Assembly: GCA_030148005.1 (NCBI GenBank) | Contig: JASBUI010000019.1 | Span: 124,001 to 188,000 of the forward strand | Origin: Paracoccaceae bacterium | Lineage (GTDB): Bacteria; Pseudomonadota; Alphaproteobacteria; Rhodobacterales; Rhodobacteraceae | Direction of reading: 5' to 3' | Length of the DNA stretch: 64,000 nucleotides | Shown here: in pieces, positions 2,509 through 52,605 of the stretch | How positions within the stretch are numbered: position 1 is the first letter of the stretch | Layout: every line of letters begins with the position of its first letter | Translations under genes and position numbers: made by a program | Notes under the pieces: generated by a model | Database searches by the model: none | The model's input: the letters and a program-made list of their open reading frames with translations, nothing else | Told to the model about the DNA's origin: nothing

Positions 2509-3591
2509 TTAGCCCAGAACGCGGTCACGCTGCTTGCGGTACACGCCTTCGGACTTTGTCAGCCAGTTGGACGATGCTTTCATCGAATCCTGAACACTTA
2601 CAAAGACTTCCTTGAACAGGTCGTCGCCCATGAACTCGTCATAGACTTTCTTGCTGGCGTCGCCGAAGGCATCCCAGACGCTGTCAGGGAATTCCAGAAC
2701 CTTCACACCACCGGCCTGCAGACGCTGAAGCGCGGCACCGTTGTTATTCAGGAACTGAGCAAGGTTCCACTGGTGACATTCAGCGGCAGCGATCTCGATG
2801 ACCTTTTGGTGGGCAGGCGAGAGGCTTTCAAAGACGTCACGGTTGGTTGCAAGGCTAAGACCTGCGCCCGGCTCGTGGAAACCAGCGGTGTAGTAGAACT
2901 TGGTGATTTCCTGGAAACCGGCCTTTTCGTCGGCCCAGGGACCAATCCACTCGGTTCCGTCAAGCGCACCCGAGGCAAGCGCCTGATACACTTCGGCGCC
3001 GGGAAGGTTCTGGACGCTGGCGCCCATGAAGCCAAGGGCTTTGCCGCCAAGACCGGGCATACGGAACTTAAGACCGTTAAAGTCGCCGGGACCTGTGATT
3101 TCCTTGCGGAACCAGCCACCTGCCTGCGCACCGGTGTTACCGGCCAGGAAGGATTTCAGGCCAAAGATCTGGCCCAGCTGGTCATGCATGGCATGGCCGT
3201 CACCCTGATAGTACCAGTTCACCAGTTCCTGTGCGGTCATGCCGAACGGAATTGCGGTGAAGAAGGCATAAGCGGGGTGCTGGCTTACGAAGTAGTAGTC
3301 AGCGGCGTGGTACATGTCGGCCTGGCCGGATGTAACAGCGTCGAAAACTTCAAAAGCGCCAACCAGTTCGCCGGCGGCCTTGATGTCCACGGTCAACTGA
3401 CCGTCTGTCATTGCGTTGATGCTGTCGGCACTGCGCTGAGCAGCGTCGAAAACGCCCGCAAGGCCGCGGCCCCACGACGTGACCATGGTCAGTGTCCGTT
3501 TGCCCTGGGCATAGGCAGGCGCGGCAAGCGTCGAAGCTGCAGCGGCCGAACCACCAAGTGCTGAAGTCTTCAGAAAAGAACGACGATCCAT
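2509..3591 (-). CDS. TRAP transporter substrate-binding protein, TakP/DctP family, Tat-like signal
   Basis: MDRRSFLKTSALGGSAAAASTLAAPAYAQ signal; GNTGAQAGGWFRKEI and ALDGTEWIGPWADEKAGF motifs resembling TakP-type proteins; tracked ORF start (3657) is probably upstream of the true start at 3591. Confidence 0.9.
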   Translation of the reverse strand: MDRRSFLKTSALGGSAAAASTLAAPAYAQGKRTLTMVTSWGRGLAGVFDAAQRSADSINAMTDGQLTVDIKAAGELVGAFEVFDAVTSGQADMYHAADYYFVSQHPAYAFFTAIPFGMTAQELVNWYYQGDGHAMHDQLGQIFGLKSFLAGNTGAQAGGWFRKEITGPGDFNGLKFRMPGLGGKALGFMGASVQNLPGAEVYQALASGALDGTEWIGPWADEKAGFQEITKFYYTAGFHEPGAGLSLATNRDVFESLSPAHQKVIEIAAAECHQWNLAQFLNNNGAALQRLQAGGVKVLEFPDSVWDAFGDASKKVYDEFMGDDLFKEVFVSVQDSMKASSNWLTKSEGVYRKQRDRVLG

Positions 3592-50521: not shown

Positions 50522-50609
50522 TAGGTCAAAAACTCTGACCTACAAAACGAAAAACAAAGTCCCTTTGGTATTTGCATTCATTGGCCGTTCACCGGTAACT
50601 CTGTTACCG
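50522..50609. promoter_or_regulatory. Two operator-like inverted repeats in IOR/LysR divergent intergenic region
   Basis: TAGGTCA-N7-TGACCTA (50522-50542) and CGGTAAC-TCT-GTTACCG (50593-50609), both perfect. Confidence 0.6.
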
Positions 50610-50641
50610 CAGTTTATGAATTTATGAACGGTTGCGTTACT

Positions 50642-51547
50642 ATGGACTGGGACAAGCTTAGAATATTTCACGCGGTGGCCGATGCGGGCAGCCTTACCCA
50701 TGCCGGTGAGACGCTGCATCTTAGCCAATCTGCCGTCAGCAGGCAGATTCGCGCCCTTGAAGAAAGCCTTAACGCCACCCTTTTCCACCGCCATGCGCGT
50801 GGACTGATTCTTACCGAACAAGGGGAGCTTTTGTTCGACGCCACCTCTTCGATGGCCCGGCGGCTTGAAACGGCCTCGGCGCGCATCCGCGACAGCGAAG
50901 AGGAAGTTTTCGGCGAATTGCGCGTCACCACGACGATCGGCTTTGGATCGCTCTGGCTTGCGCCGCGCCTGACGCGACTTTACGAAAAATACCCCGACCT
51001 TAAGATCGACCTGATGCTGGAAGAGCGGGTTCTGGACCTTCCCATGCGCGAGGCGGATGTCGCGATCCGTATGAAAGAGCCAAGCCAGGCCGACCTGATC
51101 CGCCGCCGCCTGATGAGCGTGCGCATGCGCCTTTACGCCTCTCCCGGCTATATCGCCCAGAACGGTATGCCCGAGCGGATGGAAGACTTTGGAGAACACA
51201 GGCTGATCAGCCAGAACACGAAAAGCGCTCAGGTCTCGGCCGGTGCGCAGTTGATCAACCAGATCCTTGCTCATGACGTGCCCTCGCTGTTGACCGTCAA
51301 TAACTACTTTGGGGTTTTGCAGGCGGTTATCAACAACCTTGGGATCGGCTGTCTGCCCGACTATATCGTCGAATCCGAACCTGACCTTGTGCGGGTTCTG
51401 CCGGATGTCGAATCTGTCGAAGTGCCGGTTTTCCTCGCCTATCCAGAGGAACTTCGTCAGTCCAAGCGCATTGCCGCCTTCCGTGATTTCATCACCGGCG
51501 AAATCACAGCGCACCGAAAAAAGCTTAAATCAGAGGCAGATAGCTGA
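50642..51547 (+). CDS. LysR-family transcriptional regulator
   Basis: MDWDKLRIFHAVADAGSLTHAGETLHLSQSAVSRQIRALEESLNATLFHRHARGLILTEQG HTH; LysR substrate-binding domain. Confidence 0.95.
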   Translation: MDWDKLRIFHAVADAGSLTHAGETLHLSQSAVSRQIRALEESLNATLFHRHARGLILTEQGELLFDATSSMARRLETASARIRDSEEEVFGELRVTTTIGFGSLWLAPRLTRLYEKYPDLKIDLMLEERVLDLPMREADVAIRMKEPSQADLIRRRLMSVRMRLYASPGYIAQNGMPERMEDFGEHRLISQNTKSAQVSAGAQLINQILAHDVPSLLTVNNYFGVLQAVINNLGIGCLPDYIVESEPDLVRVLPDVESVEVPVFLAYPEELRQSKRIAAFRDFITGEITAHRKKLKSEADS

Positions 51548-51619
51548 GATATGCAGCGGACGCATAACGGCTTTTCATCAAATTGATGGATATTCTCTTG
51601 ATCGGCCACGGGGCCAACC

Positions 51620-51711
51620 CTAATTGAGCATCAAGAGAAGCGAAGGCGTGGCCTTCATCTCTTACCTCCCTGTTGGACTTGGGCCGAGCTTAGTCTCGGC
51701 CTACTTTTTTT
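51620..51711 (+). ncRNA. Candidate small RNA with 5' stem-loop, CCUCCC single-stranded segment and Rho-independent terminator (5' end approximate)
   Basis: AAGAGA-AGC-GAAGGC-GTG-GCCTTC-A-TCTCTT stem (51633-51663); ACCTCCCTG linker; GGCCGAG-CTTAGT-CTCGGCC (51682-51701) then TTTTTTT; no ORF. Confidence 0.6.
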
Positions 51712-51915: not shown

Positions 51916-52605
51916 ATGCCTTCGAAGATTATGTACACCGCAGCCATTTCTGGTTTCCTGCTGGCCTTTGCGCCGGCTTCCCACGCAGACATCGGCGGAG
52001 TTGGAGTTGACGTCTCGGCCGACATCGGAGGCGGCGACGTCTCTGCCTCTGCCTCAGCCTCTGTTGGATCGTCGGCCAGTGCCTCGGCCTCTGTATCCAC
52101 CTCCCACAGCCATGATGGAAAGAATTCCAAGGGCAAGAAGCATTCAGGCTTCAAGTGGCCCTGGCAAAAGGCCAAACAGGCCGCCGTTCCGGCCGTCACC
52201 AAAAAGGTCGGCGGCGTGGTCAAGCATGTTCACAAGGACCTGCATGGCATTGGCCACGGGCGCGGACATGATCACGGCGACAAAACCACAACGACAAACG
52301 ACGGCCCGGTTGCGCGGGTAACCCGCGACGAGAGCGCAATTGACATCATTCGCCCGCTGAACGGTTGGGACCGCTCCAAGGTCGGCATGCCCATCTATTC
52401 TTCGGATGGTCACCTTCTTGGGACAACGAACGCCGTGCAGTCCGGAAAATCACAGTCGATGCTTGTTCACGCAAAGATCGCGCGTGATCTTGGCATTAGC
52501 CACAGCGAGGTAATGCTGCGCATGGCCTCTTTCAACATCCGCAATGACCGGATTGTTTTCAACATGACGCGCGACCGTTTTGTTAAGCACATGTCAAAGA
52601 CCTAA
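51916..52605 (+). CDS. Secreted hypothetical protein with Ser/Ala repeats, His-rich linker and C-terminal PRC-barrel-like segment
   Basis: Signal peptide MPSKIMYTAAISGFLLAFAPASHA; SASASASVGSSASASASVSTSHSHD; GWDRSKVGMPIYSSDGHLLGTTNAV. Confidence 0.85.
   Translation: MPSKIMYTAAISGFLLAFAPASHADIGGVGVDVSADIGGGDVSASASASVGSSASASASVSTSHSHDGKNSKGKKHSGFKWPWQKAKQAAVPAVTKKVGGVVKHVHKDLHGIGHGRGHDHGDKTTTTNDGPVARVTRDESAIDIIRPLNGWDRSKVGMPIYSSDGHLLGTTNAVQSGKSQSMLVHAKIARDLGISHSEVMLRMASFNIRNDRIVFNMTRDRFVKHMSKT

Follow-up and report, generated by a model that had tools for sequence, protein, structure and literature searches.

What is the compact RNA-like element that lies between a LysR-type regulator gene and the ORF behind it in this Rhodobacteraceae DNA, and what would control it and be controlled by it? 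The stretch analysed (64,000 nucleotides from a Paracoccaceae bacterium; hereafter the window) had been given a preliminary description from its letters alone, which proposed an independent sRNA with an exposed anti-Shine-Dalgarno (anti-SD) segment and stated that it could not be assigned to a known family.

The sRNA gene and its identity

The sRNA gene at 51632-51711 on the + strand is confirmed. It occupies the non-coding space between the end of the LysR ORF at 51547 and the next ORF start at 51916, and the parts named in the preliminary description, namely a compound hairpin with two stems, an unpaired anti-SD stretch and a clean terminator with seven U, were all recovered (Table 1). The stretch at 51664-51680 reads ACCTCCCTGTTGGACTT, the RNA has only one CUCCC segment, and the terminator scan gave a stem of GGCCGAG (51682-51688) and CTCGGCC (51695-51701) followed by T7 at 51705-51711. 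The downstream ORF (51916-52605), between sorY and purL, encodes a secreted, serine/alanine- and histidine-rich protein with no credible Pfam or NCBIfam match and no counterpart in the other loci compared; in a congener (G001), purL directly follows sorY.

Table 1 Features of the sRNA locus and a candidate target in the window
Feature	Position	Strand	Basis or remark
LysR regulator, LsrB/VtlR ortholog, predicted activator of sorY	50624..51547	+	
Predicted LsrB/VtlR operator TATGC-N7-GCATAACGG	51550..51570	+	T-N11-A LysR box; GCAT at about -70
Promoter CTTGAT (51597-51602)-N16-CCTAATT (51619-51625)	51597..51625	+	Alphaproteobacterial RpoH-like
Predicted SorY sRNA, ~80 nt	about 51632..51711	+	Start placed from the aligned R. 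sphaeroides SorY, whose 5' end is mapped (PMC6238624); end is the T-run
5' compound hairpin	51633..51663	+	Sequence, folding, covariation in 51 sequences
Outer stem of 5' hairpin, AAGAGA/TCTCTT	51633-51638/51658-51663	+	
Inner stem of 5' hairpin, GAAGGC/GCCTTC	51642-51647/51651-51656	+	
Single-stranded anti-SD seed ACCUCCCUGUUGGACUU	51664..51680	+	Conserved in aligned orthologs
Intrinsic terminator with U7	51681..51711	+	Terminator scan; kept in orthologs
TRAP receptor (DctP) gene, a candidate target; its SD, TATGGGAGGATAT, complements the seed	2512..3591	-	

A 121-nt piece folded alone was unremarkable (z -1.4). For the 5' hairpin folded alone, z was -3.1 for the window sequence, and the 50 orthologs, each of which scored below -1, had a median of -3.3. 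The hairpin sequence drifts, and the seed CCTCCCTGTTG with the following ACT is invariant in 36 aligned orthologs; the mean unpaired probability of CCUCCC is about 0.4-0.75 in the 50 orthologs. MAFFT misaligned the variable hairpin in full RNAs and RNAalifold then recovered mainly the terminator, a problem that was solved by a structure-led model. In the resulting alignment of 51 sequences, which was fitted to the hairpin model and hence leans towards it, 89.9% of the hairpin cells pair, and 108 cells show double-sided compensatory changes against 29.6 expected (sd 5.7). None of 500 shuffles reached 108, and sliding the pairing partners yielded at most 39 such cells, so that the covariation across Rhodobacteraceae, which the preliminary description had suggested checking, beats every shuffle and slide control. 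A gapless alignment of nine sequences, not fitted to the model, gave weaker agreement, with double changes at 7 pairs (3/500 shuffles).

As for the promoter, the pair TTGATC...TAATTG noted earlier exists but is not a classical sigma70 promoter, for which a scan at the sRNA returned nothing; it reads better as CTTGAT-N16-CCTAATT, close to the S. meliloti RpoH1 consensus CTTGAA-N16-CCTATAT (PMC8844928). The 18-nt spacing from CTTG to the -10 element was found in 47/50 orthologs (CTTG-N18-CCTAAAT). Since the RpoD consensus CTTGAC-N17-CTATAT has almost the same register as that of RpoH1 (PMC8844928), the sigma factor is not settled from the sequence alone. This alphaproteobacterial RpoH/RpoD CTTG promoter type, and the LsrB/VtlR-type operator described below, go beyond the preliminary description.

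At curated cut-offs, Rfam detected only a tRNA in the whole window. In E-value mode, the SorY family (RF02651) matched 51634-51709 over its full length (1-83/83) with 49.8 bits and E 3.4e-9, a score that fails the curated SorY cut-off of 111 bits. When 150 Rhodobacteraceae genera were sampled, the model matched in 139 and exceeded the cut-off in 1. The failure is a limit of the model and not of homology: Rfam misses the window RNA because the 111-bit threshold admits only close relatives of R. sphaeroides. The sole genome above it (G076, locus L031; 115 bits) has a SorY match at 1632645-1632727 and a SorX match at 2598225-2598299, in agreement with the published SorY TSS (1,632,642) and SorX 5' end (2,598,224) of R. 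sphaeroides (PMC6238624), from which we infer that this genome is strain 2.4.1 and that L031 is authentic SorY. There, SorY is flanked by orthologs of the window LysR (77%) and PurL (85%), and 28 of the first 30 loci compared have the same LysR next to the RNA. By sequence and synteny, the window RNA can thus be assigned to a known family after all, as a syntenic ortholog of R. sphaeroides SorY, which is transcribed from its own promoter and TSS without processing (PMC6238624, PMC8307010) and is RpoHI/RpoHII-dependent and Hfq-bound (PMC5036791).

Two other readings of the RNA were weighed against SorY. SorX and the alpha-r8 RNAs (MmgR/SisA-D) also match the window over their full length (SorX, 31.2 bits; suhB/mmgR, 23.9 bits), and CCUCCCU-n-ACUU with a terminator is common to all these RNAs; yet SorY scores highest, its locus, promoter and box are the ones present here, SorX of R. 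sphaeroides maps to another place, and this genome has a separate SorX-like RNA at G000:C4:183439-183533. The 23.9 bits fall short of the alpha-r8/MmgR (RF00519) cut-off of 41, and the alpha-r8 10-mer UUUCCUCCCU (PMC12559287) is missing in the window, which reads CUUACCUCCCU. We therefore consider a SorX or alpha-r8 identity very improbable, and give marginally less credit still to the idea that the element is merely a processed 3' UTR or terminator of the LysR mRNA. The RNA does share the LysR strand and begin 84 nt past the stop codon of that gene, and the related SorX derives from a 3' UTR (PMC6238624), but the promoter of the RNA's own and an operator-like box between it and the LysR gene are both conserved, and R. 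sphaeroides SorY starts at its own TSS and is unprocessed (PMC6238624, PMC8307010). The preliminary description had named a LysR 3' UTR lacking compensatory changes as the outcome that would contradict it; what we found is a conserved promoter and 108 compensatory cells. The comparative evidence thus supports its interpretation of the SorY ortholog as an independent sRNA with an exposed anti-SD segment.

The SorX-like RNA of this genome (L095, about 1469-1544) is a second RNA of the SorY type, carrying TTCCTCCCTGTTAGACTTGCCGCG and a terminator, with SorX as its best match (31.9 bits; suhB/mmgR, 27.9 bits). Another, weaker one lies at G000:C25:10439-10522 (L242). Minus-strand Rfam matches in the window (skipping-rope, CC3552) were rejected as weak and on the strand opposite to the conserved gene.

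The upstream box and the adjacent LysR regulator

The window letters at 51550-51570 are TATGCAGCGGACGCATAACGG. The core ATGC-N7-GCAT occurs in the 45-nt stretch upstream of the -35 element in 32 of 50 orthologs, compared with 0-1 for other spacers and a mean of 0.9 (maximum 4) after shuffling. The looser TGC-N7-GCA is present in 38 of the 50, 37 of them at one of two adjacent positions, and the fuller form, ATGC-N7-GCATRNCGG, precedes sorY at a constant distance. Of the three exact copies in this genome, one precedes sorY, one precedes a DUF1127 gene and the third falls within a gene; in the congener, sorY and a DUF1127 gene are likewise preceded by the box. A stricter pattern gave 34 matches in 81 Rhodobacteraceae genomes and 0 for the reversed control. 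We read 30 stringent copies: 16 precede sorY, 1 a SorY-like RNA (L405) and 9 DUF1127 genes, with 4 others. Control by VtlR in Brucella falls mainly on AbcR2 and three DUF1127 genes (PMC12595884); the genes preceded by the box, SorY-type RNAs and DUF1127 genes, are of the same two target classes. Compared with the published VtlR/LsrB site, GCAT-N3-TG-N3-T (PMC7486931, PMC8844928), the window sequence GCATAACGGCTTT agrees in GCAT, the second G and the final T and differs in one base, having GG in place of TG; the S. meliloti box is about 9-10 bp nearer, the window box sitting further upstream.

Other palindromes were seen in the vicinity. Between the box and the -35 element, many orthologs (e.g. 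L010, L016, L046) have a second palindrome, ATGCTGCA-NN-TGCGGCAT, which is degenerate in the window and could be an activation half-site. At 50522-50542, in the gap that separates the LysR gene from an indolepyruvate oxidoreductase-like gene, lies TAGGTCA-N7-TGACCTA, an operator distinct from the ATGC box; R. sphaeroides (L031) has it in the corresponding position. In R. sphaeroides, a copy of the box (L365/L369, G076:C4:1512645) stands shortly upstream of an Old Yellow Enzyme-like gene, a possible further LsrB target.

The best match of the window LysR among PDB chains was 9HH1, A. tumefaciens LsrB, with 265.8 bits (next chain, 115), and 48 of its first 70 residues (HTH) are identical to LsrB. 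A class-wide search gave a clear best LsrB match in 79 genomes outside Rhodobacteraceae among the matches listed, in most genomes far above other LysR proteins. In a tree with 14 paralogs, built by a quick method and with long paralog branches, the proteins of Rhodobacteraceae, other families and Rhizobiaceae LsrB fell into one clade (SH-aLRT 88). These comparisons identify the window LysR as an ortholog of LsrB/VtlR, a regulator that occurs class-wide in Alphaproteobacteria; they disagree with the description of LsrB as unique to Rhizobiales, which came from a small LsrB/OxyR comparison (PMC11975290). The four reported cysteines of A. tumefaciens LsrB correspond to V, V, C and A in the window LysR, and the retained cysteine is V in most of the Rhodobacteraceae family. 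The redox cysteines C144/C273 (numbered C142/C271 in the alignment) are V and A in the window and absent from the Rhodobacteraceae orthologs compared, and because they are mostly missing, the signal sensed may differ. They are absent also from most of the other families compared, and thiol sensing may be a Rhizobiaceae speciality.

The class-wide element, candidate targets and proposed circuit

VtlR/LsrB activates an adjacent abcR1 or abcR2 in Agrobacterium, Sinorhizobium and Brucella (PMC7486931, PMC8844928), and ar15/AbcR follows LsrB in 12 named Rhizobiaceae loci. At the LsrB loci of other families, an sRNA-like element with CCTCCCTGT was found within 600 nt downstream on the same strand in 22/28 (shuffles, 0.1; opposite strand, 0), usually with CGTCTCCCAGACG before it and a terminator after it, and ATGC-N7-GCAT in 16/28 (other spacers, 0-1). 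A SorY model (R1) matched nine of these elements with E below 0.003. A model built from 19 LsrB-adjacent elements with Rhodobacteraceae left out (R3) matched, conversely, 51/51 SorY loci (E about 1e-6 to 0.03) and neither Rhizobiaceae nor paralog loci. Run on whole genomes, R3 produced 59 matches outside Rhodobacteraceae; in 44 of the 79 genomes the match stood on the LsrB strand, 122-499 nt downstream of the gene, and 25 of the 44 were outside the training set. Sequence, synteny and operator thus link SorY to the class-wide element. The ties of Rhizobiaceae AbcR to both are synteny and operator only: as R3 has no Rhizobiaceae match, direct sequence homology between SorY and Rhizobiaceae AbcR1 is unsupported, and the link runs through synteny, operator and intermediate families. 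The AbcR/alpha-r15 model (RF02345) has no match in the window. The AbcR1 region had already been noted as syntenic across alphaproteobacteria (PMC8844928), and part of this link may be known already.

In one genome (G002), L021 1309-1397 is an apparent tandem second copy beside sorY, which scores 34.6 bits with the class-wide model, above sorY's own, and recalls tandem abcR1/abcR2. R3 RNAs not adjoining LsrB occur in G041, G049, G177, G202, G235, G291 and other genomes, some of them small, and may be free-standing members or relocated copies.

SorY is known as an RNA of ~80 nt that occludes ribosome-binding sites in transporter mRNAs. In R. sphaeroides it acts on the mRNA of takP, a malate/metabolite transporter (PMC6238624, PMC8307010), and represses it; no takP ortholog was identified. 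Among 1972 crudely called genes in 2.26 Mb of this genome, including the window, 51 have GGGAGG at SD distance, and these comprise 5 of 8 TRAP-receptor genes versus 46 of 1964 others (p=5e-7); AGGAG alone was not enriched at the TRAP-receptor SDs. DctP genes found by Pfam have a GGGAGG SD in 6/9 by eye, and one R. sphaeroides DctP locus was C4-dicarboxylate DctP-like against PDB. Because a ranking by duplex energy was weak (receptors, p=0.0015, ranks 159-855 of 1972), only the SD statistic was used. The GGGAGG SDs of TRAP receptors fit, in predicted complementarity, the CCUCCC seed, and could also reflect strong translation of abundant receptors rather than sRNA targeting.

The best overall explanation, which we hold to be quite probable, is a circuit in which sorY is activated by the adjacent LsrB/VtlR ortholog and an RpoH-type sigma factor and masks GGGAGG SD sites. 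The LysR protein would bind at ATGC-N7-GCATRNCGG, some 70 nt ahead of the start, and RpoH-type sigma factors would act at CTTG-N18-CCTAAAT; jointly they would drive transcription of the ~80-nt RNA. The 5' hairpin, conserved in shape and not in sequence, would cap SorY, and the terminator would end it with a U-tail that can serve Hfq. The unpaired ACCUCCCUGUUGGACUU would then pair with GGGAGG-type SD sites, above all those of periplasmic transport receptors, halting translation and lowering nutrient influx under stress. In this proposal, activation by LsrB and the targets in this species are predictions, and SorY would be the Rhodobacteraceae counterpart of AbcR1, a stress brake on nutrient uptake.

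A simpler account is a plain SorY ortholog under RpoHI/RpoHII alone, with an unrelated LysR neighbour and palindromes that belong to another regulator. It draws on the reported RpoH dependence of R. sphaeroides SorY (PMC5036791) and the conserved RpoH-like promoter, and our literature search found no paper that mentions SorY with AbcR1 or links it to a LysR. The box, however, has the T-N11-A form of a LysR-type site and stands where LysR activators typically bind. It fits the VtlR consensus except at one fixed position and adjoins an LsrB ortholog, and DUF1127 genes follow its other genomic copies, a pattern shared with Brucella. We accordingly regard RpoH control alone as unlikely, and prefer joint control by LsrB and RpoH.

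More broadly, and with somewhat less confidence than in the circuit itself, we think it probable that LsrB/VtlR, an adjacent anti-SD sRNA and DUF1127 genes belong to a single ancestral regulon of Alphaproteobacteria, with SorY (photo-oxidative stress) in Rhodobacteraceae and VtlR/LsrB-AbcR1 (symbiosis, virulence) in Rhizobiales as lineage-specific forms possibly of common descent. LsrB would therefore not be unique to Rhizobiales, and the inputs that are split between AbcR1 (LsrB) and AbcR2 (RpoH) in Sinorhizobium would join at one Rhodobacteraceae promoter. SorY itself is a known RNA, and the LsrB-SorY circuit appears to be the new part: the window RNA now has a name and a proposed transcriptional activator, SorY and AbcR1, which have been studied separately, are placed in one circuit with transport receptors and DUF1127 genes as predicted outputs, and what LsrB senses without its redox cysteines becomes testable in Rhodobacter. 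The analysis also brings out a widespread LsrB-adjacent sRNA to which our searches could attach no Rfam family.

Comparison with known systems

R. sphaeroides SorY (RSs1543, RF02651) resembles the window RNA in LysR-sRNA-purL synteny, promoter, hairpin-seed-terminator layout and a near-invariant seed, whereas the sequence of the window 5' hairpin is largely replaced with its pairing retained. SorX (RF02784) and MmgR/SisA-D (alpha-r8, RF00519) have the same 3' module of CCUCCCU, ACUU and terminator at different loci and with different promoters, and R. sphaeroides SorX is cut from a 3' UTR (PMC6238624). CcsR1-4 of R. sphaeroides resemble SorY in being stress sRNAs and have a link to the DUF1127-type gene ccaF1, but they are processed from a transcript shared with ccaF1 and are not matched by the window RNA.

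AbcR1/AbcR2 (alpha-r15, RF02345) of Rhizobiaceae and Brucella are, like SorY, encoded downstream of an LsrB/VtlR gene and in the same direction, and have a related operator; they share anti-SD CUCCC motifs, and the literature gives them Hfq, transporter targets and, for AbcR2, an RpoH input. They differ in being about 112-121 nt long, often in tandem, against ~80 nt for SorY, with sequences not detectably alike, in having two anti-SD motifs (M1 CUCCCA and M2 GUUCCC; PMC5461406) in place of the single segment of window SorY, and in an LsrB whose redox cysteines are not conserved in the window LysR. The LsrB-adjacent sRNA of other Alphaproteobacteria shares with SorY the position downstream of LsrB, the ATGC-N7-GCAT box and CCUCCCUGUUnnACUU with a terminator, but is longer and carries an extra upstream ACGU-CUCCCA-GACGU hairpin that is M1-like.
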